Positions 6,793 through 29,796 of a stretch of DNA of 41,250 nt are shown here, one piece after another. Location of the stretch: NCBI GenBank assembly GCA_900318355.1, contig ONKE01000060.1, positions 1-41,250 on the forward strand, written 5' to 3'. The position numbers were made by a program, and so were the translations under genes. Position 1 is the stretch's first letter. Every line of letters begins with the position of its first letter. The stretch is from an uncultured Bacteroidales bacterium (GTDB lineage Bacteria; Bacteroidota; Bacteroidia; Bacteroidales; UBA932). The notes below the pieces were generated by a model. The model worked only from the letters and a program-made list of their open reading frames with translations, was not told where the DNA came from and made no database searches.

Positions 6793-6800
6793 TATCTTTG
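6793..6800 (+). promoter_or_regulatory. -7 promoter element TATCTTTG for engB
   Basis: A perfect match to the Bacteroidota -7 consensus TAnnTTTG. No TTG -33 element is seen at the expected distance. The last base lies only 4 nt before the engB ATG, so initiation a few bases downstream would give a leaderless or nearly leaderless message. Confidence 0.55.
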
Positions 6801-6804
6801 CATT

Positions 6805-7401
6805 ATGAAAATCAAAGAGGCAAAATTTGCTGGGAGCAGCGTCAATGTATCCGGAAAGCCGGCGCGTAGGCTCCCCGAGTTTGCCTTCATCGGCAGGTCG
6901 AACGTCGGCAAGTCCTCCCTCATCAACATGCTGTGCGGCAACCGCAAGCTTGCCATGACCTCCGCCACCCCCGGCAAGACCAAGCTGGTCAACCATTTCC
7001 TTATCAACGACGCCTGGTACCTCGTGGACCTCCCGGGCTACGGATTCGCCAAGATGTCCCAGCGCGACAGGGACTTCCTCCATGGCGTCATAAGCAATTT
7101 CCTGACATATTCAGAGGAACTTGAAATGATATTCGTCCTTGTCGACGCCCGTCACGACGTCCAGAAGATAGACCTGGACTTCATGGACGAGCTCCGCGAA
7201 AATGACATACCCTTCGGCATCATTTTCACCAAGGGCGACAAAATGGGGCCGGTTGCCCTCCAGCGTCAGATGGACGCCTACAAAAACAACCTGCTGCAAA
7301 AATGGGAGGGGCTTCCTCCCTGCTTCGCCACATCGTCCCAGACGGGTCTCGGTCGCGACGAAGTGCTTGGCCACATCGAATCAATCCTTAACAATCGGTA
7401 A
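6805..7401 (+). CDS. engB: Ribosome biogenesis GTPase EngB/YsxC/YihA
   Basis: A 198-residue single-domain GTPase of the TrmE-Era-EngA-YihA family, needed for large-subunit ribosome assembly. Visible motifs are the P-loop GRSNVGKSS (from Gly30), the switch region TSATPGKTKLVNHF, the G3 motif DLPGYG, the TKGD base-specificity motif and the CFATSS end motif. Start and length fit the family (MKIKEAKFAGSSVNV leading into PEFAFIGRSNVGKS). It is the first gene of a tight cluster with prs (3-nt gap), a small membrane protein and der. A -7 element ends 4 nt before the ATG. Confidence 0.95.
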   Translation: MKIKEAKFAGSSVNVSGKPARRLPEFAFIGRSNVGKSSLINMLCGNRKLAMTSATPGKTKLVNHFLINDAWYLVDLPGYGFAKMSQRDRDFLHGVISNFLTYSEELEMIFVLVDARHDVQKIDLDFMDELRENDIPFGIIFTKGDKMGPVALQRQMDAYKNNLLQKWEGLPPCFATSSQTGLGRDEVLGHIESILNNR

Positions 7402-7404
7402 GCT

Positions 7405-8382: not shown

Positions 8383-8388
8383 GAGAGT

Positions 8389-8622
8389 ATGAAAGTCTTT
8401 CTCGCAGCGCTCCTCTTTCTGGGCATAGGCGTCTTCGCCATGTGCTTCAACATCATTTTCCGGGGCAAGGAATTCCCCAACTCCGATGTCGGAAGCAACG
8501 AGCAGATGCGCCGGATAGGCATACGCTGTTACAAGGAAGACGACGCGGAGGCGCAGCGCAAGGTCTGCACCGGCAACTACTCCGAAGCCTGCAAGGACTG
8601 CGGGCTGCTTAACAAGAAATAA
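8389..8622 (+). CDS. Small membrane-anchored Cys-containing protein of unknown function
   Basis: 77 residues. The N-terminal hydrophobic segment (~residues 3-24, VFLAALLFLGIGVFAMCFNIIF) is followed by a hydrophilic tail with clustered cysteines (CYKEDD, CTGNYSEACKDC), which might bind metal or form disulfides. It lies 6 nt after prs and 9 nt before der on the same strand, so it is clearly part of this operon. The cysteine spacing does not match the NqrM family I first considered. No function can be assigned. Confidence 0.8.
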   Translation: MKVFLAALLFLGIGVFAMCFNIIFRGKEFPNSDVGSNEQMRRIGIRCYKEDDAEAQRKVCTGNYSEACKDCGLLNKK

Positions 8623-8631
8623 CTCTTACCC

Positions 8632-9939
8632 ATGGCATTAGTAGCGATTGTAGGAAGGCCGAATGTCGGCAAATCCACCCTGTTCAACCGCCTGGTCGGC
8701 ATGCGCCAGGCCATCGTCGACGAGACCGCCGGCGTGACCCGTGACCGCCACTACGGCAAGTGCGAGTGGTGCGGCCGCGAATTTTCCGTAGTCGACACCG
8801 GCGGCTGGTCTTCCGGCTCGGACGACGTCTTCGAGGAGGAAATCCGCAAGCAGGTCGTCATCGCCATCGAAGAGGCCGACCTGGTGCTCTTCATGGTCGA
8901 GGCCGCTACCGGCGTGACCGACTACGACTCTGAGATCGCCGACCTCCTGAGGCGCTCCCGCAAGCCCGTCGTCCTGTGTGTCAACAAGGTCGACAGCGGC
9001 GCCAAGCAATACGATGCCTACGACTTCTATTCGCTCGGACTGGGCGAAATCTGGAGCATCTCCGCGGCTAACGGCAGCGGCACCGGCGATCTTCTTGACG
9101 AGATCGTGCGGCTCCTGCCCGAAGAAAAAGAGGCTCCCGACCCTTATGCCGGCGTGCCCCGCGTAGCCATAGTCGGAAAGCCGAATGTGGGCAAATCATC
9201 GCTTACCAACGCCCTCCTCGGCCAGGAACGCAACATCGTCACGCCCGTCGCCGGCACCACCCGCGACTCCATCGAAACATACTACAACAAGTTCGGCCAC
9301 GAGTTCATGCTGGTCGACACCGCCGGCATGCGCCGCAAAAACAGGGTCTCGGAAGACCTTGAATTCTACAGCGTCATGCGCTCGATCCGCGCAATCGAAC
9401 ATGCCGACGTCTGCGTCCTGATGATAGACGCCTCTTCGGGCATGGAAGCCCAGGACATGAGCATCTTCAACCTGATCCAGCGCAACCGCAAGGCCTGCGT
9501 CCTGGTCGTAAACAAGTGGGACACCGTGGCCAAGGACTCCAACACGTTGCGCGAATACGAAGAAGCCCTCCGCTCCCGTATTTCCCCGTTCGACGACGTC
9601 CCCATCATATTCACCTCGGTGCTGAAGAAACAGAGGATACTGGACGTGCTGAACGAAGTAGCCCATGTGTTCGGCAACTACACCCGCCGCATCCCCACGG
9701 CGCAGCTGAACGACGCGCTCCTGCCGGAAATCTCCGAGACTCCTCCGCCGGCATGGAAGGGTAAATATATCAAAATCAAGTATGTCACGATGCTTCCGAC
9801 GCGTTTCCCGTCGTTCGCATTCTTCTGCAATCTGCCCCAATACGTCAAAGACCCCTACAAGCGCTTCCTTGAGAATCGCCTGCGTACGCATTTCGACCTG
9901 ACCGGATGTCCGATACAGGTCTATGTAAGGCAGAAGTAG
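8632..9939 (+). CDS. der: Ribosome biogenesis GTPase Der (EngA)
   Basis: A 435-residue protein with two tandem GTPase domains and a C-terminal KH-like domain, acting in 50S subunit assembly. Domain 1 has [17 protein letters not shown] and NKVD. Domain 2 has [12 protein letters not shown] (from Gly182), AGTTRDS, DTAGMR and NKWD. The KH-like end runs through [20 protein letters not shown]. Length and order are canonical. It closes the engB-prs-small protein-der cluster and converges on the lipoprotein gene that ends 7 nt downstream on the other strand; no terminator hairpin is visible between them. Confidence 0.96.
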
Positions 9940-9946
9940 GGGGAGG

Positions 9947-12078: not shown

Positions 12079-12264
12079 ATGGAGGAAAAATTCGATTATG
12101 CCGCCGCGATGGCCGAACTCGAGGCCATAGCAAAAAAGGTCGAAGACCCGCAGACGCGCCTCGACGACATCGATGCGCTCGTAGACCGCAGCAAGGCCCT
12201 GCTTGCGGCCTGCCGCTCTTATCTGCGCAGCGTTAAGGAAAAAATAGACGAACTCGAAGGATGA
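12079..12264 (+). CDS. xseB: Exodeoxyribonuclease VII small subunit
   Basis: 61 residues, the normal size for XseB: two helices with the family pattern FDYAAAMAELEAIAKKVEDPQTRLDD then LVDRSKALLAACRSYL. It binds the coiled-coil stalk of XseA to form active ExoVII. It lies 3 nt after xseA. Its TGA stop overlaps the ATG of the branching-enzyme gene (ATGA, 4-nt overlap), so DNA-repair and glycogen genes are translationally coupled. Confidence 0.93.
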   Translation: MEEKFDYAAAMAELEAIAKKVEDPQTRLDDIDALVDRSKALLAACRSYLRSVKEKIDELEG

Positions 12265-14252
12265 TTTACGACAGCGACCCGTGGCTTATGCCATATAAAG
12301 GCGCCATCGATGCGCGCCATGCCCGTATAGAGGACCTTCGCCGGAGGATAAGCCGCGGCGGACGCCTCTGCGACGGGGTCAACAACCATCTTTACTACGG
12401 TCTCCATAGGGCCGAAGACGGCTCATGGGTGATAAGGGAATTCGCCCCGAACGCCTCCAGGATATATCTGATCGGCGATTTCAACAACTGGAAACGCACG
12501 GCCCCATATTCCTTCAAGCCGCTCGGCGGAGGCAACTGGGAACTCTGCCTGCCCGAATTCTGCCTCCACCACGGCGACCTCTACAAACTCTTCATCGAGT
12601 GGCCCGGAGGCGGCGGCGAAAGGCTTCCGTCATATGTGCGCAGGGTGGTCCAGGACGATGTCACGAAGGTGTTTTCCGCCCAGGTCTGGGACCCGGCCGA
12701 GCCCTATCGCTGGAAGCACGGACATGCCGGACGCCGTCCCAATCCGATGATCTACGAGTGCCATATCGGCATGTCGTCCGAAGAGGAGAAAGTCGCTTCG
12801 TTCGAGGAGTTCCGCCGCGATGTGCTTCCCAAGGTGAAGGCCCTTGGCTACGACACCATCCAGATCATGGCCCTGCAGGAGCATCCATACTATGGTTCCT
12901 TCGGCTATCAGGTGTCCAATTTCTACGCCCTGAGCTCCCGTTTCGGAACGCCCGAGGAGTTCAAGCGGCTCGTCGACGACGCCCACGGCAAGGGCATCGC
13001 GGTGGTCATGGACATCGTCCACAGCCACAGCGTCGACAACGAGGCCGAGGGGCTCAGCCGCTTCGACGGCAGGGAAGACCTCTACTTCTACTCCGGCGAC
13101 CAGGGACGCCATCCCGCCTGGGGCTCCCGCTGCTTTGACTACGGCAAGGACGAGACAAAATACTTCCTGCTGTCGAACGTGAAGTTCTGGATGGAAGAAT
13201 ATCATCTGGACGGTTTCCGCTTCGACGGGGTCACCAGCATGCTTTACTGGGACCACGGACTGGGCAAGGATTTCGGGAGCTACGACCTCTATTTCAACGA
13301 AGGCGTCGACGAAAATGCCGTGGCCTACCTCGCCCTGGCCAACATTCTCGTCCACGAGATGAACCCTAATGCCATCACCATCGCCGAAGATGTCAGCGGC
13401 ATGGCCGGTCTGGCGGCTCCTTTCGCCGAGGGCGGCGTCGGCTTTGATTTCCGCATGGCCATGGGCATCGCCGACCACTGGATAAAGTGGATTAAGGAAA
13501 AGAGCGACGAGCAGTGGAGCATGGGCGAAATCTGGTGGGAGCTGACCAACAAGCGCGCCGATGAAAAGACCATCTCCTATGCCGAGTGCCACGACCAGGC
13601 CCTGGTGGGCGACAAAACCCTGATTTTCCGCCTGATAGACAAGGAGATGTACTTTTCCATGCGCCGGGATTCGGACAACGCCCTGGTCGACCGCGGCATC
13701 GCCCTCCACAAGATGATCCGCCTTGTCACGGCGGCCACTTCCGGAGGCGGCTACCTGACCTTCATGGGCAACGAGTTCGGCCATCCGGAATGGATAGACT
13801 TCCCCCGCGAGGGCAACGGCTGGTCGTTCAAATACGCCCGCCGTCAATGGTCCCTTGCCGAGCCGGACTACCTTCGCTACAAGGGTCTTCGCGATTTCGA
13901 CAGCGATATGGTCCATCTTATCCGCCGTGAACGCCTTCTCAGCGTCCCTCCACGCCTGCTGGTAGCCGACGAGCAGAAGAAAATATTGATTTTCATGCGG
14001 AAAAACTGTATCTTTGCGCTGAATTTCTCCCCGTCCGGATCCTTTGCCGACTACGGCTTTGCGGCTCCTGCCGGTGAGTATGTGGAAGTGCTTGATACTG
14101 ACGAAGATCGCTTTGGCGGCTACGGCCGCACGGCCTCCGGCACCCATCACTTCACCATACCGGAGAAAAGTCCCAACGGCGACCAGGCCTTCGACAATAC
14201 GCTTTCGCTGTATCTGCCGGCCCGTTGCGCCGTTGTCCTGAAGAAAATTTGA
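12261..14252 (+). CDS. glgB: 1,4-alpha-glucan branching enzyme (GH13, eukaryote-like)
   Basis: A 663-residue enzyme forming alpha-1,6 branches in glycogen. An N-terminal CBM48-like domain (WVIREFAPNASRIYLIGDFNNWKR) precedes a GH13 barrel. The nucleophile is Asp322 (DGFRFDGVTSML), the acid/base Glu376 (TIAEDVSG) and the third carboxylate Asp445 (AECHDQAL). The GNEFGHPEWIDFPR region and overall pattern resemble eukaryotic branching enzymes (GH13_8) more than E. coli GlgB. It opens the glycogen block: 4-nt overlap with xseB, 3-nt gap to the debranching-type gene. Confidence 0.94.
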   Translation: MIYDSDPWLMPYKGAIDARHARIEDLRRRISRGGRLCDGVNNHLYYGLHRAEDGSWVIREFAPNASRIYLIGDFNNWKRTAPYSFKPLGGGNWELCLPEFCLHHGDLYKLFIEWPGGGGERLPSYVRRVVQDDVTKVFSAQVWDPAEPYRWKHGHAGRRPNPMIYECHIGMSSEEEKVASFEEFRRDVLPKVKALGYDTIQIMALQEHPYYGSFGYQVSNFYALSSRFGTPEEFKRLVDDAHGKGIAVVMDIVHSHSVDNEAEGLSRFDGREDLYFYSGDQGRHPAWGSRCFDYGKDETKYFLLSNVKFWMEEYHLDGFRFDGVTSMLYWDHGLGKDFGSYDLYFNEGVDENAVAYLALANILVHEMNPNAITIAEDVSGMAGLAAPFAEGGVGFDFRMAMGIADHWIKWIKEKSDEQWSMGEIWWELTNKRADEKTISYAECHDQALVGDKTLIFRLIDKEMYFSMRRDSDNALVDRGIALHKMIRLVTAATSGGGYLTFMGNEFGHPEWIDFPREGNGWSFKYARRQWSLAEPDYLRYKGLRDFDSDMVHLIRRERLLSVPPRLLVADEQKKILIFMRKNCIFALNFSPSGSFADYGFAAPAGEYVEVLDTDEDRFGGYGRTASGTHHFTIPEKSPNGDQAFDNTLSLYLPARCAVVLKKI

Positions 14253-14255
14253 AAT

Positions 14256-16187
14256 ATGGCCTTTCTGAAATTCAACAAGTCTGAACTGGTCAACCTGTCC
14301 TACTCGCTTGGCCGTGAGATTATTCTGGCCAGCAAGACGGGCGCCTGCTGCAACACGTCCATCGTCACGTGCAACACCCGCCGTTACCATGGCCTCCTGG
14401 CTGTTCCGGTGGCTGGTTTCGGCGGCTACCGCTACATGATGCTCTCTTCGCTGGACGAAAGCCTTACCCTCCGCGGGAAGAGGTTTAATCTCGGAATCCA
14501 TTGCTACGGTGATATTTACGAGCCCCGCGGCCATAAATACATCGTCGATTTCGATGCGGACCCGGTGCCGAAGATAACCTACAAGATAGGCGAGATGGTC
14601 CTTACCAAGCGCCTTGTCCTCGTTCCGGACCGCAACCAGCTCCTCATCCGCTACGACCTTGAAAAGGCTCCGGACAAGGTGAAATTGGAACTCAAGCCGT
14701 TCCTGGCCTTCCGCCGCGTCCACGACCTGACCCACCGCAACGGCGACGCCCGCACCGGCGCCCGCGAAGTCCCCGGCGGCGTAGCGTTCAACCTCTACGA
14801 CGGCTTCCCGGACCTTTACCTCCAGACCGGCGGCAAGTCAGTATTCAAACCGGCCCCCTACTGGTACGACGGCATAACCTACTCCGACGAAATGCGCCGC
14901 GGCTTCGACTGCAAGGAAGACCTGCTGGTCCCCGGCACCTTCGAACTGGAGCTTGCCCCGGGCGGTTCGGTGGTCTTCTCCGCTTCCACGGAAGAGGCTG
15001 CCCCTGCCGGCCTGAGCCGCCGTTTTTCCGCCACTGTCGGCCGCATCGGCCCCATCACCTCCTTCCACGACCAGCTCGTGCGCCAGGCCGACCTCCTGAT
15101 CCGCTGCGACGGCAAGCGCAAGCAGATAGTCGCCGGCTATTCCTGGCTGATGACCGGCCTTCTCCGCGAAACTCTCGGTTCGCTTGCGGGGCTCACGCTC
15201 TATGGCAAAAACGACCCCAAGGAGTTCGAGGAGATTCTCGACGACCTCATCGCCCACAACCAGGAGCGCCTTTTCCACAAGACCACGCAGGTCGAGTCGC
15301 CCCTCTATCTGGCCGTCACCCTCCAGCAATACATCGCCTACACAGGGCGTGAAAAGCATGCGTGGGAGAAATACGGTCCCGTGCTCAAACGGGTGATTGA
15401 AAGCTATCTGCCCGGATGCCGCGGCGAGGTGGTGATGCATCCCAACGGCCTTCTCTGGGCCCAGCAGGACGGTGTCGCCCTCTCGTGGATGAACGCCTAC
15501 ATAGGCGGCAGGGCCGTCACCGAGCGCGCCGGCTATCAGGTCGAAACCAACGCCATGTGGTACAACGCCATCTGCTTCTGCATCGAATGCGAGGGCAAAT
15601 ATGGCAAGGATGATAAATTCATCTCGAAGTGGAGCGGCATCCGCGACCTCTTCAAGGAAAACTACCAGCCCATGTTCTGGGATGCGGGCCTCGGCTTCCT
15701 GGCCGACTATGTCGACGGCGCCGGCCGCCACATGGAACTGCGTCCCAACCAGCTCTGGGCCGTGTCCCTCGACTATTCCGCCGTTTCCGACGAAGTTGTG
15801 AGCGCCGTGATGAGAGTCGTCAACAACGAGCTCGTCACTCGCCGCGGCATAAGGACCCTGTCCCCCCGCGACGTCGCCTACAAGGGCGTCTACGAAGGCA
15901 CCCAGATCGAGCGCGACAGGGCCTACCACAACGGCTGCGCCTGGACATTCCTCCTGGCCCAATACTGCTACGCCAGTTTCAACATGATGGGCGGGAATTT
16001 TGTCAAGCGCGCCGAATGGCTCACCGAAGGCTTCTATGAAGACCTTTCCAAACACGGAGTCGGCGCCTTCTCCGAGCTCTACGACGGCGATCCGCCCCAC
16101 GAGCCCCACGGAGCCATCTCCTCCGCAATGGCTACTGCAGCCCTTCTCAATATCAATTGGTTGATCGCAAAATACAGGGAGAAATAA
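14256..16187 (+). CDS. Glycogen debranching-type enzyme (amylo-alpha-1,6-glucosidase family, GH133)
   Basis: 643 residues. The N-terminal GDE_N-like beta-sandwich (residues ~1-260, NTRRYHGLLAVPV, MMLSSLDESL) precedes an (alpha/alpha)6 domain. Conserved glycogen-debranching signatures are MHPNGLLWAQ, VETNAMWYNAI, LRPNQLWAVSL, RTLSPRDVAYKGVYEG and AYHNGCAWTFL. The usual WGRDT segment, whose Asp is taken as catalytic, reads GLLRETLGSLAGL, with Glu305 in its place. So either this lineage uses Glu or activity is altered. The enzyme would remove alpha-1,6 branch glucoses during glycogen breakdown in the cytoplasm. It sits in the glycogen operon (3-nt gap upstream, 2-nt gap downstream). Confidence 0.88.
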   Translation: MAFLKFNKSELVNLSYSLGREIILASKTGACCNTSIVTCNTRRYHGLLAVPVAGFGGYRYMMLSSLDESLTLRGKRFNLGIHCYGDIYEPRGHKYIVDFDADPVPKITYKIGEMVLTKRLVLVPDRNQLLIRYDLEKAPDKVKLELKPFLAFRRVHDLTHRNGDARTGAREVPGGVAFNLYDGFPDLYLQTGGKSVFKPAPYWYDGITYSDEMRRGFDCKEDLLVPGTFELELAPGGSVVFSASTEEAAPAGLSRRFSATVGRIGPITSFHDQLVRQADLLIRCDGKRKQIVAGYSWLMTGLLRETLGSLAGLTLYGKNDPKEFEEILDDLIAHNQERLFHKTTQVESPLYLAVTLQQYIAYTGREKHAWEKYGPVLKRVIESYLPGCRGEVVMHPNGLLWAQQDGVALSWMNAYIGGRAVTERAGYQVETNAMWYNAICFCIECEGKYGKDDKFISKWSGIRDLFKENYQPMFWDAGLGFLADYVDGAGRHMELRPNQLWAVSLDYSAVSDEVVSAVMRVVNNELVTRRGIRTLSPRDVAYKGVYEGTQIERDRAYHNGCAWTFLLAQYCYASFNMMGGNFVKRAEWLTEGFYEDLSKHGVGAFSELYDGDPPHEPHGAISSAMATAALLNINWLIAKYREK

Positions 16188-16189
16188 CG

Positions 16190-17479
16190 ATGCGGGTACT
16201 GATGTTCGGATGGGAGTTCCCTCCCCATATTGCAGGCGGCCTCGGCACGGCCTGCGAGGGAATAGTCAAGGGCCTTGCAGCCAACGGCGTCCAGACCCTC
16301 TTCGTGATGCCTTCTGCCTCCGGCGACGAAGACCAGAGCGCCGCGACCATCATCAACGCCAGCGACGTGGCGGTCGACACCGTCTCCGAGTCGGTCGAGC
16401 AGTATCTTGACAAAGTGAAGTTCATCCATATCGGGACGAACATGATCCCCTACGCCGATCCGGAAGAGTTTTCCCGCCTCGTCGAGGAAGACCGCGTGCG
16501 TCAGGTAAAGGACTTTTCCATCAGCTACGGCCAGAAATACAAGTTCTCGGGCAAGTACGGGGCCAACCTCATGGAGGAAGTGGCCCGCTACGCCATGGTG
16601 GGAGGCACGATCGCCCTTCAGCATAAGGACGAGTTCGACGTGATCCACGCCCACGACTGGCTGACCTACTACGCCGGTATCGCCGCCAAGGAACTGACAG
16701 GCAGGCCCTTGGTGATCCATGTCCACGCCACGTCCTTCGACCGCGGCAGCGCCGACAACATCGACACCCGCGTCTTCGAAATCGAAAAGCGCGGCATGCT
16801 CGCCGCCGACAGGGTGATCACGGTTTCCGACCTGACGCGTTCCATCGTTATCGGAAAATACGGCATAGACCCCGAAAAGGTCGTCACGGTCCACAACGCC
16901 GTCGACTTCAGCGGCAGGGAAAACCTCCACCTCGAGCGCGGCGTCCGCGAAAAGACGGTGACCTTCCTGGGCCGGATCACCTACCAGAAGGGCCCCGAAT
17001 ACTTCATCGAAGCGGCCGCCAAGGTACTCAAGCGCACCAAAAACGTCCGTTTCGTCATGGCCGGCAGCGGCGACATGATGAACCGCTGCATCCGCCAGGT
17101 CGCCCGCATGGGCATTTCCGACCGTTTCCATTTCACGGGATTCCTCCGCGGAATGGACGTCCAGAAGATGTTCGCCCTGTCCGACGTCTACATCATGCCC
17201 AGCATCTCCGAGCCTTTCGGCATTTCCCCGCTGGAGGCTATGCGCACGGGGGTTCCGTCCATCATCTCCAAGCAGTCCGGAGCCGCCGAAGTGCTGCGCT
17301 ACGCCTTCAAGGTCGATTTCTGGGATGTCGACGCGATGGCGGACGATATCTACGCCCTGCTCCACTATCCGGCCCTTGCAAGCTTCTCGGCCGCAATGGG
17401 CTACGACGAGGTCAACGCCCTGAAATGGAACGAGGCCGCCGCAAAAATGAAAAAAGTTTACGAATCCGTTGTAAAATAA
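16190..17479 (+). CDS. GT4-type glycosyltransferase of the glycogen cluster
   Basis: A 429-residue GT-B glycosyltransferase. The start at 16190 follows the previous stop by 2 nt and gives the typical first strand MRVLMFGWEFPPHIAGGLGTACEGI. An in-frame ATG at 16157 lies inside the upstream gene and is rejected. Other hallmarks are HAHDWLTYYAG, TVSDLTRSIV, TFLGRITYQKGPEYFIEAA and the donor-site E-x7-E motif EPFGISPLEA. GT4/GT5-like enzymes of this form occur in Bacteroidota glycogen clusters and may act as a glycogen synthase or primer-forming transferase with NDP-glucose; donor and acceptor cannot be read. A complete GT3 synthase two genes downstream means its role is additional. Confidence 0.87.
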   Translation: MRVLMFGWEFPPHIAGGLGTACEGIVKGLAANGVQTLFVMPSASGDEDQSAATIINASDVAVDTVSESVEQYLDKVKFIHIGTNMIPYADPEEFSRLVEEDRVRQVKDFSISYGQKYKFSGKYGANLMEEVARYAMVGGTIALQHKDEFDVIHAHDWLTYYAGIAAKELTGRPLVIHVHATSFDRGSADNIDTRVFEIEKRGMLAADRVITVSDLTRSIVIGKYGIDPEKVVTVHNAVDFSGRENLHLERGVREKTVTFLGRITYQKGPEYFIEAAAKVLKRTKNVRFVMAGSGDMMNRCIRQVARMGISDRFHFTGFLRGMDVQKMFALSDVYIMPSISEPFGISPLEAMRTGVPSIISKQSGAAEVLRYAFKVDFWDVDAMADDIYALLHYPALASFSAAMGYDEVNALKWNEAAAKMKKVYESVVK

Positions 17480-17485
17480 TGTGCC

Positions 17486-18796
17486 ATGGCAAGTAAAAGC
17501 ATTTGTCTGTATTTCCAGGTTCACCAGCCCACCCGGCTTCGTCTCTACCGTTTCTTCGATATCGGCAAAGATTCCCACTACTACGATGATTTCGCCAACA
17601 GGACCATCCTCCGGCGCATCGCCCAGAAGTGCTATCTTCCCATGAACGCCCTTCTGCTCGACCTCATCGGCCGCCACGGAGGCAAGTTCAAGGTGGCGTT
17701 TTCCATCTCAGGCTCGGCTCTGGACCAGTTCCAGCGTTTCGCCCCGGATGTGATCGACAGCTTCCGCGCCCTTGCCGACACAGGCTGCGTCGAGTTCCTC
17801 GCCGAGACATACAATCATTCCCTCGCGTCGCTCAAGTCCGAGTCGGAATTCGCCCATCAGGTCGCCAGACACAAGGCCGCCGTCGAATCCCTGTTCGGCG
17901 TTACTCCCACCGCTTTCCGCAACACGGAGCTGATCTATTCCGACGCCATCGGAGAGCAGGTCGCCCAGATGGGCTTCAAGGCCATGCTCACTGAGGGCGC
18001 CCGCCACATCATGGGCTGGAAGAGCCCTAATTTCGTCTACAGCTGCGCCGCACAGCCCAAGCTCAAGCTGCTCCTGCGCAACTACGCCCTTTCGGACGAC
18101 ATCGCCTTCCGCTTCTCCGACAGGAACTGGGAAAACTGGCCCCTGACGGCCGACAAATACCTTGCATGGCTCAAGGAGAGCGCCCAGTCCGACGACGTCG
18201 TGGGCCTTTTCATGGACTATGAGACGTTCGGAGAGCACCAGAATGCCTCCAGCGGCATTTTCGACTTCATGCGCGCTCTCCCCGAGGCCGTTCTCGCCGA
18301 CGGCACCTTCGACTTCGCGACCCCTTCGCAGGCCGTCAAGAAATACAAGGCGGTGGCTCCGCTCGATGTTCCGGATGCAATCTCCTGGGCCGACGAAGAG
18401 CGCGACGTCTCCGCATGGCTCGGCAACGAGCTCCAGCAGGAGGCCTTCAACAAGGTCTACGCCATGACGGAAAAGGTTTCCATCGTCGGCAGCCCCGAAC
18501 TCCTGGAAGATTTCGGCCACCTTCAGGAGAGCGACCATTTCTACTACATGTGTACGAAGTTCTTCTCCGACGGGGAAGTCCACAAATATTTCAACCCCTA
18601 CGATACGCCCTACGAGGCATTCATCAACTATATGAACGTGCTTTCCGATTTCCAGATCCGCCTGGACGAAGCCCGTGCCGCCCTGGATGTCAGGGAGGCC
18701 GCGATCGGTCAGTGGGACAACGCCGCACCGGAGGTCCCGGCCAAGGCGCCCGCACGCAGGAAAGCCTCCGCTCCACGCAAGAAGAAAAAGGATTAG
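17486..18796 (+). CDS. GH57 alpha-amylase/4-alpha-glucanotransferase-like enzyme
   Basis: 436 residues, cytoplasmic (no signal peptide). GH57 motifs are visible: the start ICLYFQVHQPTRL, AETYNHSLASL, the nucleophile region AFRNTELIYSD (Glu148) and the acid/base region LFMDYETFGEHQ (Asp244). Both catalytic residues are spaced as in the short archaeal/bacterial GH57 amylase subfamily. Family members hydrolyse or transfer alpha-1,4-glucans, so a role in glycogen trimming is inferred from the operon. The last ~20 residues form a Lys/Arg/Ala/Pro-rich tail with no family counterpart I know of. The stop abuts the ATG of the next gene with no gap. Confidence 0.9.
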   Translation: MASKSICLYFQVHQPTRLRLYRFFDIGKDSHYYDDFANRTILRRIAQKCYLPMNALLLDLIGRHGGKFKVAFSISGSALDQFQRFAPDVIDSFRALADTGCVEFLAETYNHSLASLKSESEFAHQVARHKAAVESLFGVTPTAFRNTELIYSDAIGEQVAQMGFKAMLTEGARHIMGWKSPNFVYSCAAQPKLKLLLRNYALSDDIAFRFSDRNWENWPLTADKYLAWLKESAQSDDVVGLFMDYETFGEHQNASSGIFDFMRALPEAVLADGTFDFATPSQAVKKYKAVAPLDVPDAISWADEERDVSAWLGNELQQEAFNKVYAMTEKVSIVGSPELLEDFGHLQESDHFYYMCTKFFSDGEVHKYFNPYDTPYEAFINYMNVLSDFQIRLDEARAALDVREAAIGQWDNAAPEVPAKAPARRKASAPRKKKKD

Positions 18797-21700
18797 ATGT
18801 CAGTGAAAAAGTCAGTTGGACCCGACTACCTGTTCGAGGTCAGTTGGGAAGTGTGTAACAAGGTCGGCGGTATTTATACAGTCATCGCGACCAAATCCCT
18901 TTATCTGAAATCCCAGCTCGGGCGTCACCATATCCTGGTGGGGCCCGACGTGTGGATGAATACGGAAGACAATCCGGATTTCGTTGAAGACCCGCATCTT
19001 TACCGTAACTGGCGCATGCAGGCGGCCAAGGAAGGCCTTCGCGTGCGTGTAGGAAAATGGAACGTGCCCGGTACTCCGACGGCCATCCTCGTAGATTTCA
19101 AGCAGTTCCTTCCCGAGCAGGACAAGGTTCTTGGGGAATATTGGAAAGAGTTCGGCGTCGATTCCATATCCGGCGACTGGGACTACAAGGAAAACGCCCT
19201 GTTCGGCTATGTTTCCGGCAAGCTGGTGGAGAGTTTCTACCGCTTCAACCTTTCGCCCTCCGACCGGGTCGTGGCCCAGTTCCACGAGTGGCAGACGGGC
19301 GCCGGTCTGCTCTATCTCCGCCGCACGGGTCTTCCCATCGCGTCGGTCTTCACGACCCATGCAACGGTGGTAGGCCGCTGCCTCGCCGGCAACAACCTGC
19401 CTCTCTACGACGGCATGTCGGGCTATGACGGCGACGAAATGGCCCGCCGCTACGGTGTCGTCGCCCGCCATTCGCTGGAAAAGGCTTCCGCCCGCGAGGC
19501 CGACGTCTTCACGACGGTAAGCGACATCACCGCCGACGAATGCGCCCAGTTCCTCTGCCGCAGGCCGGACGTGGTGACGCCCAACGGTTTTGAAAACAGC
19601 TTCACCCCGTCCACGGACGAGGAATATGACGCCAAGCGTGCCCAGGCGCGCGCCAGGCTCATCGAGGTCGCCACTGCCATGAGCGGCGAGCAGGTCGAAA
19701 AAGATGCCGTCCTGATGTGCATCGGCGGCCGTTACGAATACCGCAACAAGGGTATAGACGTATTCCTCGACGCCCTCGGCGACATGGCTCAGGCCGGCTA
19801 TGAGGGCCGTCAGATCCAGGCCTTCATCATGATTCCGGCCGGGCAGAACGGTCCCGACCGCGCCCTCGTCGCCAAGCTCACCCGCGGCGACAACCAGCAC
19901 TACACCACCCAGGTCTCCCACCAGCTGATGTACCCCGAGAGCGACCAGATAACCCGCCGTTTCCGCGAGCGCGGCCTGGTCAACTCCGTCGGCGGCCGCA
20001 TCAAGGTCTACTTCGTCCCGTCCTATCTCAACGGCGACGACGGCGTGTTCGGCATGAAATACTACGACCTGCTGGTCGGCATGGACCTGGCCGTCTTCCC
20101 GTCCTATTACGAGCCGTGGGGCTACACTCCCTTGGAGGCGCTTGCCTTCCGCGTCCCCACGTTCACGACGTCCCTTGCCGGCTTCGGCCGCTGGGTCGAA
20201 ACCCACTACGGCGAGAAAGACCATCCCGGCATCACCGTCGCTTTCCGCAACGACTCCAACTATTCCGAAGTGGTCGAGGCCGTCAAGAAGCGCATAAGCG
20301 AAATCTCCGCCATCGACCTCCCCACCAGGCGCCAGTGGATGGAAAATGCCCGTCAGGTTGCCTCCATCGCCCTGTGGGAAAACCAGATTGTTTATTACCA
20401 GAAAGCCTATACCCTGGCCCTTGAGCGCGTAATCGCCGCCAACGGAGCCTTCCCCAAATCAACGGAAAACAAACAGATGAATTACGAAAAGATAGCAATT
20501 AATGCTCCCAGCTGGAAGAGTGTCATGGTGACGCGCCATCTTCCGTCCGCCCTTTCCGGTCTCGAAACCCTTTCCAAGAACCTCTGGTGGTGCTGGAACG
20601 ATCGCGCCAAGGCCTTGTTCAAGACCGTCGACCCGCAAATCTGGCACGACAGCGGCCACAACCCCATGGCGATCCTCGACACCGTCAGCATCAAGCGCTT
20701 CAAGGAGCTGGCCCGCGACAAGGAATTCCTCTCCCGCCTTGCGGCCGTGATGGAGGAGTTCAACGCCTACATGGCCCTCAAGTCCCAGCGCACTGAGCCT
20801 TCAGTGGCCTATTTCTGCATGGAATACGGCCTTGACGCGTCGCTCAAGATCTATTCCGGCGGTCTGGGCATCCTCGCCGGCGACTACCTCAAGGAGACCA
20901 GCGACATGAACGTCAACCTGGTGGCCGTGGGCTTCCTCTACCGTTTCGGCTATTTCACCCAGGTGCTCACCGCCCAGGGAGAGCAGGTAGCCCGCTACGA
21001 CGCCCAGGACTTCATGAAGATTCCCGCCGAGCCCGTGCTCGACGCCGACGGCAACTGGATGACGACCAGCGTCGCCTTCCCCGGCCGCACCATCACCGCC
21101 CGCCTGTGGAAAGTCGCAGTCGGCCGTACCGACCTCTACCTGATGGACACCGATTACGAGGCCAACATCCCCGAAGACCGTCAGGTTACCCACCAGCTCT
21201 ACGGCGGCGACTGGGAAAACCGTCTGAAGCAGGAGCTTCTCCTCGGCTTCGGCGGCGTCCGCGCCCTGCGCAAGCTCGGAATCAACCCAACCATCTACCA
21301 TTGCAACGAAGGACATGCCGCGTTCATCGGCCTTGAGCGCCTGCGTGAATACATCCAGCAGGACAACCTTTCCTTCCCCGAGGCGATGGAGGTGGTCCGT
21401 GCTTCGTCCCTGTTCACGACCCACACGCCCGTCCCGGCCGGCCACGACGCCTTCGACGAGGGCATGCTCCGCAAATATCTCGGCCATGTGCCCGAGCAGC
21501 TCAAGATAGACTGGAACACCCTCATGGGCCTCGGCAAGATTCACGCTTCCGACACCGGCGAGAAGTTCTCCATGAGCATCCTCGCGGCCAATATCTCCCA
21601 GAATGTCAACGGCGTTTCCATGCTTCACGGCAAGGTGAGCCAGGAAATCTTCTCCAACATGTATCCGGGCTATCTCCCCGAAGAGCTCCACATCAGCTAT

Positions 21701-23041
21701 GTGACCAACGGCGTCCACTATCCGACTTGGGCCTCGAAGGAGTGGAAGGCAATCCACGAGCGTGTCTTCGGCCCCGAGTTCCAGACCCATCACTACGACA
21801 AGCGCTGCTTCGAAGGCATCTACTCCATCTCCGACGAGGAAGTGTGGAATACGCGCAAGATCCTCAAGACCGAGCTCATCCGCATCGTCAAGAACATGCT
21901 TCTCGACCCTGCCCAGTGCAGCCATTATTCTCCCAGCCAGATAGTTACGATCAAGGAGACCTTGAGGGACGACGTCCTGACCATCGGCTTCGCAAGGCGT
22001 TTCGCAACATACAAGCGCGCGACGCTGCTCTTCAGCGACCTCGACCGTCTCGACGCCATCGTCAACAATCCCAAGATGCCGGTCCAGTTCATCTTCGCCG
22101 GCAAGGCCCATCCCGCCGACAAGGCCGGCCAGGACCTTATCCGCCAGATTGTCGAAATCTCCAAGCAGGACCGTTTCATCGGCAAGATCGTCTTCGTGCC
22201 CGGCTACGACATCCGTCTGGCAAAGCGCCTCGTCCAGGGCGTCGACGTGTGGATGAACAACCCCACACGTCCCCAGGAAGCCTCCGGTACATCGGGCGAG
22301 AAGGCCGCGATGAACGGCGTCATGCACTTTTCCGTCCTCGACGGATGGTGGGTTGAGGGCTATAAGGAGGGCGCCGGCTGGGCCCTGCCCCAGGAACGCA
22401 CTTACGACGACCAGTACTATCAGAACGAGCTGGATGCCGCAACCATCTACGCCACAATCGAAAACGAAATCGCTCCCGTCTACTACGACATCGATTCCGC
22501 CACCGGCCTGTCTCCCCGCTGGGTCGGCTACATCAAGAACTGCGTCGCCCAGGTGGCATGCAACTTCACCACCAACCGCATGCTGACCGACTACGTCAAC
22601 CAATACTATCAGCCTCAGAGCGAGCGCGTTTCCTCGCTGGTTGCCGACGACTACCAGAAGGCCCGCGACATAGCCGCATGGAAGAAACACGTCGAAAGGG
22701 AATGGAACAATATCGAGGTGATTTCCTACACCCAGCCCGACGCTTCCTACAGCCTTGCCCCCGACAACTACCTCCATGCCGAAGTGGTCCTCCATACGGG
22801 CGACCTCCAGCCCGACGACCTCGGCGTTGAGATGCTCTTCTGCCGTGCCGACCGCAAGGGTGCCCTCCATATCCAGGACAAGTGCGAGTTCCGCCTCGTC
22901 TCGGCCGAAGACGGAGTGGCGCGTTTCGAAGCCTCCATCCTTCCGGAGCGCACCGGCATGTACCAGGTTGCCACCCGCATCTATGCCAAGAATCCGGCCC
23001 TGCCCCATCGTCAGGACTTCGGTCTGGTGAAATGGCTGTAG
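18797..23041 (+). CDS. Fused glycogen synthase (GT3) - glycogen phosphorylase (GT35)
   Basis: One continuous 1414-residue frame with two complete enzymes. Residues 1-560 are a GT3, eukaryote-like glycogen synthase: LFEVSWEVCNKVGGIYTVI, FTTHATVVGR, and the E-x7-E motif YYEPWGYTPLE (Glu439/Glu447). Residues 561-1414 are a GT35 alpha-glucan phosphorylase: VAYFCMEYGLDASLKIYSGGLGILAGDYLK, YHCNEGHAAF, and the pyridoxal-phosphate lysine Lys1169 in EASGTSGEKAAMNG. The junction is short (FPKSTENKQ then Met561-NYEKIAINAPSW). Met561 looks like the former start of a stand-alone phosphorylase. The fusion joins chain elongation from NDP-glucose with phosphorolysis to glucose 1-phosphate, two opposing reactions. 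It is the last glycogen gene; its 3' end overlaps ribF by 10 nt. A GT3-GT35 fusion may be known in some Bacteroidales; I cannot check. Confidence 0.93.
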   Translation: MSVKKSVGPDYLFEVSWEVCNKVGGIYTVIATKSLYLKSQLGRHHILVGPDVWMNTEDNPDFVEDPHLYRNWRMQAAKEGLRVRVGKWNVPGTPTAILVDFKQFLPEQDKVLGEYWKEFGVDSISGDWDYKENALFGYVSGKLVESFYRFNLSPSDRVVAQFHEWQTGAGLLYLRRTGLPIASVFTTHATVVGRCLAGNNLPLYDGMSGYDGDEMARRYGVVARHSLEKASAREADVFTTVSDITADECAQFLCRRPDVVTPNGFENSFTPSTDEEYDAKRAQARARLIEVATAMSGEQVEKDAVLMCIGGRYEYRNKGIDVFLDALGDMAQAGYEGRQIQAFIMIPAGQNGPDRALVAKLTRGDNQHYTTQVSHQLMYPESDQITRRFRERGLVNSVGGRIKVYFVPSYLNGDDGVFGMKYYDLLVGMDLAVFPSYYEPWGYTPLEALAFRVPTFTTSLAGFGRWVETHYGEKDHPGITVAFRNDSNYSEVVEAVKKRISEISAIDLPTRRQWMENARQVASIALWENQIVYYQKAYTLALERVIAANGAFPKSTENKQMNYEKIAINAPSWKSVMVTRHLPSALSGLETLSKNLWWCWNDRAKALFKTVDPQIWHDSGHNPMAILDTVSIKRFKELARDKEFLSRLAAVMEEFNAYMALKSQRTEPSVAYFCMEYGLDASLKIYSGGLGILAGDYLKETSDMNVNLVAVGFLYRFGYFTQVLTAQGEQVARYDAQDFMKIPAEPVLDADGNWMTTSVAFPGRTITARLWKVAVGRTDLYLMDTDYEANIPEDRQVTHQLYGGDWENRLKQELLLGFGGVRALRKLGINPTIYHCNEGHAAFIGLERLREYIQQDNLSFPEAMEVVRASSLFTTHTPVPAGHDAFDEGMLRKYLGHVPEQLKIDWNTLMGLGKIHASDTGEKFSMSILAANISQNVNGVSMLHGKVSQEIFSNMYPGYLPEELHISYVTNGVHYPTWASKEWKAIHERVFGPEFQTHHYDKRCFEGIYSISDEEVWNTRKILKTELIRIVKNMLLDPAQCSHYSPSQIVTIKETLRDDVLTIGFARRFATYKRATLLFSDLDRLDAIVNNPKMPVQFIFAGKAHPADKAGQDLIRQIVEISKQDRFIGKIVFVPGYDIRLAKRLVQGVDVWMNNPTRPQEASGTSGEKAAMNGVMHFSVLDGWWVEGYKEGAGWALPQERTYDDQYYQNELDAATIYATIENEIAPVYYDIDSATGLSPRWVGYIKNCVAQVACNFTTNRMLTDYVNQYYQPQSERVSSLVADDYQKARDIAAWKKHVEREWNNIEVISYTQPDASYSLAPDNYLHAEVVLHTGDLQPDDLGVEMLFCRADRKGALHIQDKCEFRLVSAEDGVARFEASILPERTGMYQVATRIYAKNPALPHRQDFGLVKWL

Positions 23042-26063: not shown

Positions 26064-26200
26064 AAAAAAATAAGTTACCTCGTTTCAGTAACCCTCCGCT
26101 TCGCTTCGTCCCTCCCAAAAGTTTTTCAAACTTTCGGGCCCCTCCCATTCATGAGGCCATGGGCGGCCACAGGTTTTGAAACGAGGTAACTTATTTTTTT
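26064..26200. repeat. 137-bp palindromic element with perfect 24-bp terminal inverted repeats
   Basis: The arm at 26064-26087 is the exact reverse complement of 26177-26200 (24/24). The outer ends are A7 and T7. The 89-nt interior holds a further hairpin at 26114-26138 (10 of 11 pairs) and a nested pairing in 26137-26168 (GGCC/GGCC outside CCCAT/ATGGG). No protein is encoded. As RNA, the structure ends in a U-run on either strand and could act as a bidirectional terminator. The architecture also fits a small non-autonomous mobile element or a REP-like repeat. No clear target-site duplication is visible. Confidence 0.7.
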
Positions 26201-26209
26201 TGTGTGCTG

Positions 26210-26234
26210 AAAAGCCCCCTGAAAGGGGGTTTTT
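26210..26234 (+). terminator. Intrinsic terminator
   Basis: CCCCC (26215-26219)/GGGGG (26225-26229) with a TGAAA loop, preceded by AAAAG and followed by TTTTT (26230-26234). This is a classical rho-independent terminator for transcripts from the greA-HIT-lipoprotein unit, placed right after the palindromic element. Confidence 0.85.
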
Positions 26235-26370
26235 GTTGCTTTTTTGCCGTGAAATTTGGCGGTCTCGAAAAAAATTGCGAATTTGCGGGTTGATTACGAA
26301 TTTTGGGCCGCATCCCGGATTCCCCGGTTTCCCCGGGACGAGGCCGACGATAAAAACGAAGGAAAATAAT

Positions 26371-29300
26371 ATGTCTATGAAACATCTGAGAGTATCCGGA
26401 TTGGTTGCAGCCCTGGTGGCTGTCGTTTTTGGCGTATCGTGCGCAAAGAACGTTGAAATCAGTCCTGAGGAGCAGCGTAATGAAACGACATTCGACGTAA
26501 AGGCCAAGACTCCGACCGCGCAGGAAGTCGACGTCGTCGTGACACACGACGGCTTGGAAGACTACACCTGGTACGGCGCCCTGAGCACCGACCTGTCCGG
26601 CTCCGTCCGCGACCTTATCGATAAGACCGCGTCTGGCCTGGCCCCTGAAACTGAACTTCTGACCGGCACCAAGCGTACCGTCACGATACAGGATCTCACC
26701 CCTGAGACCAGCTATGTCTATGTCGTTTTCGGTATTGCCCAGGACGGCACGCTCTATGGCACTCCGGCGACGGTTTATTTCACGACCAAGGCGGCCGACG
26801 TCGTCCCCGAGGTCGTTGATCCTGAGGATGTTGTGTTCAACATCGAGGTGGTCAGCGTTGCTGCCGACAATGCCTCTGTCGTCGTCACCCACAACGGTGA
26901 TGAAGAGCTCACCTGGTGGGCCGGCCTTTGCGACGTCGAAGACGGCGCCGAAGAAGCATTCATCAAGGAAAAGGCTGCCGCCCTTGAGGCCAATCCTGCC
27001 GAGCTTTTATCCGGCACTTCCCGCACCCTGCATTTCGGTCCCGAAGACACCGAGGCCCTTGCGGAAGGAACTGAATATAAAGTGATTGCCTTTGGCTTCA
27101 GTGCCTTTGAAGAGGCCGCTCCCGCCGAAGAAGGCGAGGCCTCCGGTGAGGACGAAAGCTCCGAAGAGCCTGAAACCGTCACCGTCTACAAGACCTATGG
27201 TACTCCCGCGGTTGCAAAATTCACCACGGAAGTCCTTGCCCATCACGTAGCTGACGGTTGGGTGGCCAAATATATCGGCAACGGTACGGATGAATATGGC
27301 GACTACTCCGCCTTCCGCATCGCCGGCGTTACCGAAACTTTCAGCTACGATGTCGTGCCCGTGTCCTATGTCGAGGCCAACTTCGAATCCCTGGAAGCCT
27401 TCCTCGACTGGGATATCACCTGGTTCCGCGAAGACAGCGGCCTTGAGCCCGCCGACATGACCTTCGAAAAGGAAGGCGTCTATTACGACAACGCCTACAA
27501 GCCCGGCGAATACTACATCCTCGTATTCGGCGTCGACGACTCGTTCAACGGCACAGGCAACTACGCCTACCGCAAGTTCACCGTCTATCCCGAAGGCGGC
27601 GAAGGCCCTGCTTTCGCCAGCTACGAAGACTTCCTCGGCAAGTGGTACATGGGCTCTGTACCTGTTGAGATCAGTGTCAAGGAGGAGGGTGATTCCTACT
27701 GGTTTGACATTGCCGGAGCTTCCTCCGCCTACGGTAAGGAAACCCCTGTTGCCATCTACGATGACGGCCGTCTTTATCTGCAGGAACAGCGGTATGGCGA
27801 GTGGAACAACTCTACCTACAGCGTAATGTGTGATGACTATATTTCGGGCATGTTCCGTTACGGCTCGTCCACATACCCGATGTATCCGGTCAACAATCCC
27901 GTTCCTCTCCAGATTCTGTCCGTCACCAAGATGGGCACCGGCGAGATGGTAGTAACGCCCGGTGAGTATGATATAGCCGGCCTTGGCGCCGGGTCCTTTA
28001 TCGGCGTTATGGTTCACTGGGTCATCCGTGAAGGTGAATATGCCGGTCGCGGCAATACTTACGGCTCGGTCAATATGACAGACCGCCTGACCCGCATCCC
28101 TCCGGGATACGTGGCCGCCAAATATGAAGACTTTATCGGCGAATGGGTTTTCGGCGAAAGCACCATGACGGTCGCCGAAAAAGAAAACGGCAAGACTTAT
28201 ACTGTTACGGGCCTTGGCCTGGACGGCGTCAATGGTGATATCAAAGAAGCGGAAGCTGTTTTCGACGCCGGATGTTTCTATATCGTCGAGCAGCAACTGG
28301 GAACATGGAAAAATACCAATGCTTCTATCAATGCCCAGTGCGCTGACTACCTTTCCGGCGAGTTCTCCTATAGCGGCTCAAATTACCGCAATTATCCGGT
28401 AAACGGAGATCCTGCGACGATTTTCACCGTGTTTAAGACGGAAGACGGCGAATTCGATGTTTCAGCCGGCTCCTGCGGCTATGGAGACTTTGTGAATGTC
28501 GTTCCTCAGTGGATTATTATTGAAGGCAGTAATGCCGGTCGAGGCAACTTCTATGGAAGAATTTCCATGCCTGATGCCATCTACCCCGTCGGTGGCGGCG
28601 GAGGCGGTGACGAGCCCGGCCAGACGTTTACCCGCAACGCCAAGTGGGATATCCAGTATCCCGGCCGCTGGGTTGAAGATACTGGCCAGATAAACGACTA
28701 TTTCCTCGTTACGGTCCTCGATACGAATCCGACGGATGCCTACTTCGTCGACATCTGGCCGGAATCCCGCGTCACCGGTACTGTGGAGGAAGCGATGTCG
28801 ACATATGCCGCCAGCGCCCTGGCTTCCTTCAAGAAGACATCCGGATATGCCGACCATATTTACACCAAAGATTGCGAGGAGGTCTTCTCCGCGCTCGACA
28901 ACGGCTCTTACTATGCCATGGTCATCGGCCTTACGGCTGACGAGCAGCTCTCGGGTCTCTTCTCTTACACCAAGGTTAATATCGATGAAACTGAACCGGA
29001 GGCGTCCGATGCCTTCAGCAAATGGCTCGGCAACTGGAGCGCGACAGGCAATATGTACACTTACGATTCCGCTTCGCAGTCATTTAACCCTGGCGGCACT
29101 CAGACCGATACTTGGAGCATAGAGCCTGTCTACAACAATTCCGTCGTCCGCATATGGGGACTTGAAGGATTCCCGCAGAGTTGGGAACTCGGCGTCCTGG
29201 CGAAATTCGAAGCCTCGACAGGTGACCTTGTCCTTGCCAGCCAGTACATCGGCGCATATGAACAGGATGGCGAGACATTCGACGACTATCTCTTTGCCTA

Positions 29301-29796
29301 TAGCGGCTTTAATTTCGTTCAGGAGGCCATAGGACATGCTGTTGCACGCCTGCACCTGACAAGCGACGCTGCGGCCCAGATTACACCTGTAGCCCTGTCA
29401 TCAGGGACTGAGGTTACGGGCTTCAAACTCAACACTGTCGGTTCTGACGGAGATATCTTCCAATATTCCGGAGAGTGGTACGAGATGCCGTTCAGCATCT
29501 CGAAGGTTTCCTCCGCCTCAGGTGTCCAGGCCAATGGCGCTCCTCGTTGGAATGCTTCGGCGGCAAGGCGCGAAATGACTCAGGCGTTTGCCTCGCCTGT
29601 CAGCCTCCGTAGGCCGGACAATAGGGCAGTCTCCGCTGAAGAAGTTCAGCCTTCCAGGACCGAGCTGTCCGTCAGCAAGGATTCTTCAAGTCCGAAGGTT
29701 AAGCTGGTTGCGACATCAGATTTGGTCTTTGACGAGAACTATCTCCGGATTCCTGTATTTCAGGGTAAGCGCGGCAAAGTCGCCGACCGCTGGTAG
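26371..29796 (+). CDS. Large multidomain lipoprotein with Ig/FN3-like domains and tandem ~167-residue repeats
   Basis: 1141 residues, starting at ATG 26371 (a second ATG at 26377 is equally possible) behind an A-rich GAAGGAAAATAAT region. The signal peptide ends in a lipobox (VAVVFGVSC, Cys24). Two Ig/FN3-like domains follow (~30-150 and ~150-290), the second with a Glu/Ala/Ser-rich insert near 250-270. Two clear repeats start at residues ~417 (YEDFLGKW) and ~584 (YEDFIGEW), sharing YxxxExxxGxW, DY(I/L)SGxFxYxxSxYxxYPVN and AGRGNxYG. A third, diverged copy starts near SKWLGNW (~880). A Gly-rich linker separates the second repeat from the rest. No catalytic residues are evident. It is probably surface-exposed, with binding or adhesion by analogy only. 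It is flanked by strong terminators, so it is monocistronic. Confidence 0.85.
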   Translation: MSMKHLRVSGLVAALVAVVFGVSCAKNVEISPEEQRNETTFDVKAKTPTAQEVDVVVTHDGLEDYTWYGALSTDLSGSVRDLIDKTASGLAPETELLTGTKRTVTIQDLTPETSYVYVVFGIAQDGTLYGTPATVYFTTKAADVVPEVVDPEDVVFNIEVVSVAADNASVVVTHNGDEELTWWAGLCDVEDGAEEAFIKEKAAALEANPAELLSGTSRTLHFGPEDTEALAEGTEYKVIAFGFSAFEEAAPAEEGEASGEDESSEEPETVTVYKTYGTPAVAKFTTEVLAHHVADGWVAKYIGNGTDEYGDYSAFRIAGVTETFSYDVVPVSYVEANFESLEAFLDWDITWFREDSGLEPADMTFEKEGVYYDNAYKPGEYYILVFGVDDSFNGTGNYAYRKFTVYPEGGEGPAFASYEDFLGKWYMGSVPVEISVKEEGDSYWFDIAGASSAYGKETPVAIYDDGRLYLQEQRYGEWNNSTYSVMCDDYISGMFRYGSSTYPMYPVNNPVPLQILSVTKMGTGEMVVTPGEYDIAGLGAGSFIGVMVHWVIREGEYAGRGNTYGSVNMTDRLTRIPPGYVAAKYEDFIGEWVFGESTMTVAEKENGKTYTVTGLGLDGVNGDIKEAEAVFDAGCFYIVEQQLGTWKNTNASINAQCADYLSGEFSYSGSNYRNYPVNGDPATIFTVFKTEDGEFDVSAGSCGYGDFVNVVPQWIIIEGSNAGRGNFYGRISMPDAIYPVGGGGGGDEPGQTFTRNAKWDIQYPGRWVEDTGQINDYFLVTVLDTNPTDAYFVDIWPESRVTGTVEEAMSTYAASALASFKKTSGYADHIYTKDCEEVFSALDNGSYYAMVIGLTADEQLSGLFSYTKVNIDETEPEASDAFSKWLGNWSATGNMYTYDSASQSFNPGGTQTDTWSIEPVYNNSVVRIWGLEGFPQSWELGVLAKFEASTGDLVLASQYIGAYEQDGETFDDYLFAYSGFNFVQEAIGHAVARLHLTSDAAAQITPVALSSGTEVTGFKLNTVGSDGDIFQYSGEWYEMPFSISKVSSASGVQANGAPRWNASAARREMTQAFASPVSLRRPDNRAVSAEEVQPSRTELSVSKDSSSPKVKLVATSDLVFDENYLRIPVFQGKRGKVADRW

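Follow-up and report, generated by a model that had tools for sequence, protein, structure and literature searches.

How can a single polypeptide carry both the enzyme that extends glycogen and the enzyme that degrades it? The question is raised by a 41,250-nucleotide (nt) stretch of DNA from an uncultured Bacteroidales bacterium (GenBank assembly GCA_900318355.1, contig ONKE01000060.1, positions 1 to 41,250; here called the window). In it, one gene at 18797..23041 on the plus strand encodes a fusion of a GT3 glycogen synthase, a linker, and a GT35 alpha-glucan phosphorylase, 1414 amino acids (aa) in all. From comparisons of sequence, we propose that this gene probably specifies a bifunctional glycogen enzyme and also contains a nested gene, which would yield a free 854-aa phosphorylase alongside the fusion. 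Bacteroidota store glycogen though GlgC is missing, and a 2023 review, in its passages on this point, offers only suggestions on how (PMC10395257).

Two glycogen enzymes in one open reading frame

The original prediction placed GT3 and GT35 enzymes in one polypeptide, and this was borne out: 18797-23041 (+) is a single 1414-aa frame with zero internal stops, to which Pfam and TIGR profiles and solved structures of both families match. The GT3 half (residues 1-545; 18797..20431, +) matches Pfam Glycogen_syn (PF05693) in two stretches, the best at residues 14-351 (325 bits against a cutoff of 27), and the human, worm, and yeast glycogen synthase structures with E values of 2e-79 to 3e-71. The phosphorylase half contains a Pfam DUF3417 match (residues 582-683; 20540..20845, +) and the phosphorylase core, where TIGR02094 is matched at residues 670-1273 (20804..22615, +) over profile positions 1-600 of 600 with 819 bits against a cutoff of 191.7. 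The Pfam Carbohydrate phosphorylase match covers residues 834-1187. The best solved structure for this half is the glycogen phosphorylase of Segatella copri (PDB 9l6i; E value of 8e-284). Structure E values of 8e-284 for the phosphorylase half and 2e-79 for the synthase half exclude chance for both family matches.

Both halves also retain their key residues. The GT3 half keeps G25, the E-x7-E pair (E439 and E447), and the basic residues H188, R194, R312, and K318; from work on yeast Gsy2, we take the E-x7-E and basic residues to be catalytic. The pyridoxal phosphate (PLP) lysine of the phosphorylase half is K1169 (22301-22303), which presumably has its usual role, as do the residues of the phosphate and substrate sites. 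The earlier claim of two full-length halves with E-x7-E at 439/447 and the PLP lysine at 1169 was correct in its positions, and the residues are intact, so that two opposing enzymes are indeed predicted on one chain. Among sampled fusions, 14 of 14 phosphorylase key residues are unchanged in 59 of 59, and seven of seven GT3 key residues are retained in 54 of 59; K1169 and the 13 other phosphorylase residues are identical in 94 of 94 sampled rows.

The GT3 half has its family, fold, E-x7-E motif, and basic catalytic residues in common with human GYS1 and yeast Gsy2. An AlphaFold model was built from 26 sequences for residues 1-1200 (C terminus not included). In this model, residues 1-549, mostly with a predicted local distance difference test (pLDDT) score of 70-94, resemble the human, worm, and yeast enzymes, with template-modeling (TM) scores by target of 0.72-0.82 for the full-length rows listed.

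A conserved candidate start codon in the linker

The halves are joined by a linker (residues 546-575; 20432..20521, +) that is variable in sequence, and residues 554-580 have a pLDDT under 50. It is 28-35 residues long in nearly all fusions and 24-26 in the loci of family code f162. Within it, an ATG at 20477..20479 (+) encodes Met561, 12 residues before Trp573 (position W-12), and is preceded by an A-rich, G+C-poor, open stretch that resembles a translation initiation region (20456..20476, +). We propose this ATG as an internal start, from which the second product, the free 854-aa phosphorylase, would be encoded by 20477..23041 (+).

This position coincides with a known N terminus. W-12 is where the phosphorylase starts in the split genes of the order and is residue 1 of the S. 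copri chain, which begins at the residue homologous to Met561; the proposed 854-aa product would have the same N terminus as the 852-aa chain of 9l6i. The stand-alone S. copri phosphorylase (9l6i and other PDB entries) aligns with the C-terminal half at about 50 percent identity along almost its entire length. It is a separate protein that belongs to a clade of two-gene forms, whereas the window carries the fusion.

The start was analyzed in 81 loci (L001 and L031-L110); a tree that included 14 of L031-L110 grouped these with L001 and L002 in one clade (support, 100). An ATG lies exactly at W-12 in 76 of the 81. The other five have an ATG at W-11 with one residue lost after it (L054 and L072), a GTG at W-12 (L035), or an ATG at W-9 (L061 and L065), and so ATG or GTG occurs at a near-fixed place, W-12 to W-9, in 81 of 81 loci. 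An internal Met conserved throughout the order was rejected. Outside L031-L110, Met is found at W-12 in only 5 of 80 loci, L001 and L002 among them, and 3 of these 80 had no Trp to align.

Sequence context of the internal ATG

Bacteroidetes are reported to choose starts by lack of structure, with internal Met codons masked (PMC3155529), and open, G+C-poor upstream regions are described as marking their real starts (PMC3155529; PMC6847099). We measured A-bias as the A count in the 21 nt before an ATG relative to the expectation from the gene's own codon usage. Before the internal ATG, the count was 10.84 versus 8.95 expected, a mean z score of 2.02 (n = 76), against -0.13 for the other in-frame Met codons of these genes (standard deviation, 0.94; n = 2393). 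The 44-nt folding energy was -1.27 kcal/mol at the internal ATG and -9.07 kcal/mol at the other in-frame Met codons, and the G+C content of the 20 nt upstream was 0.35 versus 0.54 for the gene (0.35 versus 0.60 in the window). When every third one of the 81 loci was taken and averaged along the gene, the highest signal was at W-12 to W-9. In 59 of the 81, the internal ATG ranks first for openness among the in-frame ATGs of the gene, and in 77 it ranks third or better; in the window, it is the most open of 36. As a positive control, the real fusion start, which abuts the GH57 gene upstream, gave a z score of 1.56 and -1.78 kcal/mol (59 of 78 loci, in which the genes are close). The corresponding values in the window are 2.8 and 0.0 kcal/mol at the internal site and 0.8 and -0.4 kcal/mol at the real start.

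The A-bias was retained when related sequences were thinned: the z score was 2.5 for 28 representatives under 85 percent identity or 8 under 78 percent, a value that other ATGs, resampled 20,000 times, attained in 0 cases. Inherited codon choice is an unlikely source of this bias because fourfold sites are near saturation, agreeing between representatives at 0.36-0.38 (random, 0.27). A general effect of the linker is not supported, since 71 more distant fusions have no signal on average (mean z score, 0.13; -4.8 kcal/mol, with their background at about -6). Candidates that rank in the top decile by A-bias and by openness alike are present in 61 of the 81 loci versus 7 of these 71. ATG is also scarcer around the site (36 ATG to 62 GAT in the 81 loci) than around other in-frame ATGs (0.71 ATG to 0.59 GAT per site), and ATG scarcity around starts has been reported for Bacteroidetes (PMC6847099). 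The A-rich, G+C-poor, unstructured context of initiation regions in this phylum is found at the internal ATG. Unlike the masked internal Met codons of the argument in PMC3155529, Met561 is, as judged from this context, unmasked, and it is a predicted site of internal translation initiation.

Alternative explanations

Several observations weigh against two functional enzymes and a second product. The 81 loci were picked for their similarity to the window. Twenty of them fall outside the top decile for both features, and the seven other fusions noted above fall inside it. The codon is lacking in two loci of the same family, L003 and L004, of which L004 nonetheless shows the A-rich, open context, with only a GTG at W-5. 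An A at -3, a positive start determinant in Flavobacterium johnsoniae, is not enriched beyond the amino acid expectation (0.50 versus 0.57), and the window has a C there. Compared with its own shuffles, the 60-nt segment of the window has an openness that composition accounts for (z score, 0.07). The TAnnTTTG promoter box is absent from the 250 nt upstream in 81 of 81 loci, and the free enzyme would therefore have to come from the operon mRNA. A separate internal promoter was rejected on this ground and on that of a generic sigma-70 scan of the window gene, which found one site, on the minus strand, with 1.1 expected. As for the enzymes, 5 of the 59 sampled fusions have lost or altered GT3 key residues, one of them with its GT3 half cut to about 262 residues. 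The AlphaFold model has a predicted TM score of 0.46 with no confident arrangement of the halves, and its cut phosphorylase half is modeled poorly.

Some of these points are shared by a plain obligate fusion with a strict 1:1 ratio, in which the A-rich, open linker and its Met would be a folding or structural feature, either a translation pause where the two domains meet or a Met561 that belongs to the first strand. The conservation of Tyr563 and Lys565 is about equal to that of Met561, so that all three could be part of one conserved strand; L004 has the context without the start codon at W-12; and other fusions, too, have a mildly less structured linker. We consider an obligate fusion unlikely, since it would not lead one to expect that the A-bias is absent on average from the 71 other fusions, that a lost W-12 Met is replaced by GTG or a nearby ATG, or that ATG is depleted around the site, and residues 554-580 are modeled as low-confidence coil.

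Proteolysis would offer another route to separate enzymes. A polyprotein cut in its disordered linker would fit the low model confidence and variable sequence of that region, but it leaves the start codon and its context unexplained, and no shared motif was noticed in the linkers listed, on which no motif search was run; we regard it as quite improbable. It is very improbable, in turn, that either half is a pseudoenzyme serving only to target or regulate its partner, such as a GT3 half retained as a glycogen-binding module. The GT3 residues lost or changed in 5 of 59 fusions, against phosphorylase residues that never are, would be in keeping with this idea. The window and 54 of the 59 fusions, however, retain the full set of seven GT3 residues, and the fusion is the sole GT3 and sole GT35 match found in the window genome, with no other GT3 and no GlgA over the cutoff.

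Individual loci differ in their GT3 halves. In L157 (genome G032; open frame 6472-9942), a GT3 half of about 262 residues precedes a complete phosphorylase; this is a single genome, in which synthase function may have been lost or an assembly deletion could have occurred. Changed GT3 residues are G25S in L193 (G048), R194E in L194 (G010), R194N in L195 (G027), and R194S with K318E and E439K in L196 (G031). The GT3 half is perhaps decaying in some of these four.

Distribution of the fusion

The window genome (2.31 Mb) is assembled in 77 contigs, one of them the window, and is 91 percent complete, which raises the concern of an assembly or frameshift artifact at the junction. Such an artifact has a negligible probability and was rejected, since the same open junction, with both halves in one frame, is present in all 80 of the nearest named loci retained (the best 80 of at least 592) and recurs across the order. 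The closest of them come from uncultured Bacteroidales of rumen and gut, including Candidatus Cryptobacteroides. The original prediction had called for a search for proteins of both families across Bacteroidales, and the fusion proved to be spread over the order. Matches were found in 269 of 295 genomes of an order-wide draw. In a draw of 109 genomes, nearly all one per family code, whose states were read by hand from the match table with a subset checked by open reading frame analysis, 77 are fused at the junction (8 of them incomplete, in pieces, or with a deletion), 15 have adjacent separate genes, 2 have both genes unlinked, 5 have the phosphorylase only or a distant GT3, 1 has a weak match only, and 9 have none. 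The fusion is thus a common state across the order and not peculiar to the window genome.

Elsewhere in the class, the fusion is rare. Any match at all was found in 28 of 149 genomes, of which 1 is the window's own and 4 are others of the order. Outside the order, fusions were seen in G320, four f162 members (about 1340 aa), G385, and G431 (on a partial contig). The f162 loci L202 and L203 are divergent fusions of about 1340-1360 aa, and L201 (G385) is a divergent fusion of 1173 aa without DUF3417. A draw of 198 genomes of the phylum gave no further fusion among the matches listed, other classes having the phosphorylase alone.

Fused and split forms

The two-gene pairs of the order contain the same two families in the same order and on the same strand as the fusion, but as two proteins. 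The 21 split loci sampled have GT3 and GT35 in tandem, with open frames that range from overlapping to about 160 nt apart. In L141, L143, L146, and L216, the pair is parted by a single in-frame stop codon, which could reflect recent fission or read-through.

Trees built from the phosphorylase half or from the two halves together unite the two-gene form in one clade (support, 100), which adjoins the fused lineages L180, L181, and L187. In the GT3-half tree, the clade has a support of 99 but differing, weakly supported neighbors. S. copri falls inside the two-gene clade (part of the sequence; support, 99). Holding the fused forms as one clade was rejected by the approximately unbiased (AU) test with fused genes of the class from outside the order as the outgroup (p-AU = 0.0017), not quite rejected with the f162 fusions alone (p-AU = 0.065), and not rejected for the phosphorylase half with out-of-class roots (p-AU = 0.314). 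The fusion is probably ancestral in the order. Because the two-gene clade is nested among fused forms in the trees, its origin by fission of an ancestral fusion is likelier; since the rooting tests disagree, fission is favored, not proved. If the gene does encode two products, internal starts might have been a stepping stone for the splitting of the ancestral fusion on the Segatella side, an idea that we put forward tentatively.

Within family code f19, G133 has a fused gene (G133:C1:3610361-3614596; L010) that stands beside the window clade, and G019 is split, which suggests horizontal transfer. L010 has an ATG at W-8 with a start-like context.

Glycogen genes of the window

The fusion closes a glycogen operon on the plus strand. 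The operon opens with a GlgB-like GH13 branching enzyme (12261..14252, +), followed by a glycogen debranching enzyme (GDE_N/GDE_C; 14256..16187, +), a GT4-type glycosyltransferase (16157..17479, +; the listed TTG start overlaps the end of the debranching gene, and the true start may be later), and a GH57 glycoside hydrolase (17486..18796, +) whose stop codon abuts the ATG of the fusion. The gene downstream is ribF. The debranching, GT4, and GH57 genes are upstream in 80-81 of the 99 fused loci that have 5.5 kb of upstream sequence, mostly near relatives of the window. Of the 36 fused loci between L145 and L214 that have 5.5 kb of upstream sequence, 18 carry GT4 and GH57 genes upstream in the same orientation, 17 of them with the debranching gene also. 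In none of the 20 split loci with enough upstream sequence was any of the three found upstream.

Neither glgC nor glgA had a match above its curated cutoff in the 109 genomes of the order, in searches for which 7 of 14 controls pass. Full-length GlgA-like matches below the 328-bit cutoff occur in G097 (314 bits) and G096 (287 bits). In the window genome, GalU had no match above the cutoff, and UDPGP had none in a search that detected no control either. A short gene (G000:C73:29923-30423) matches the N-terminal part only of GlgA (GT5). Such a gene is also present in most of the 109 genomes, mostly as an open frame of 270-300 aa, and a retained GT5 fragment in Bacteroidetes is mentioned in PMC11046441. 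Elsewhere in the window are a 1206-aa open frame at 26176-29796, with no Pfam or NCBIfam match at an E value of 1e-4, and a RhuM-family protein at 39866-40873.

Proposed mechanism and implications

In the two-product reading that we prefer, the N-terminal GT3 synthase would extend chain ends with glucose taken from a nucleotide sugar, and the C-terminal GT35 phosphorylase would remove glucose as glucose-1-phosphate. The flexible linker of about 30 residues would tether the two enzymes and allow both to work at the same glycogen particle. The internal control and the glucose-1-phosphate cycle at the granule surface that the original prediction envisaged for such a chain are conjectures. UDP-glucose is the probable donor, as suggested by GT3 kin and by the UDP-glucose route to glycogen in Prevotella bryantii cited in PMC4432691. 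Ribosomes that enter at ATG 20477 would make the free 854-aa phosphorylase from the same mRNA, and the phosphorylase would thereby be in excess over the synthase, freed from strict 1:1 coupling. The GT3 half is about 545 aa, and the arginine run that follows the core of the human enzyme is not conserved in it, the corresponding stretch being variable. We take that run to be a glucose-6-phosphate/phosphorylation switch, a trait of the eukaryotic subfamily and not of the family. Since the switch is not conserved, control would likely depend on metabolites and on the relative amounts of the two products. The broader picture, a gene for a tethered synthase-phosphorylase and a linker-initiated free phosphorylase that also served as a halfway stage to fission, is plausible but somewhat short of probable.

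CAZy lists two-domain GT3/GT35 entries. A search by title and the start of the abstract, with most subscription journals outside its coverage, found no paper on a GT3-GT35 fusion. What is new here is the internal start signature and its conservation. TreS-Mak, GlgB-MalQ, and GlgA-GlgB, described in PMC11046441, are likewise fusions of bacterial alpha-glucan enzymes, and none of these three joins a synthase to a phosphorylase. Ms6 lysA and archaeal Cas11b are reported to have a nested in-frame start that gives a shorter second product, as proposed here. Unlike in those systems, one product here would be a bifunctional glycogen enzyme and the other just one of the two enzymes that it combines.

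In most family codes of the order that were sampled, a eukaryote-like GT3 is covalently joined to a phosphorylase. Simultaneous making and breaking of glycogen has been reported for rumen microbes (PMC4432691), and the fusion would be a natural setting for it. Because S. copri, the source of the solved structures, is in the two-gene clade, work on S. copri would miss this coupling. The nested start, if true, would show how bacteria can escape the fixed stoichiometry that a fusion imposes.

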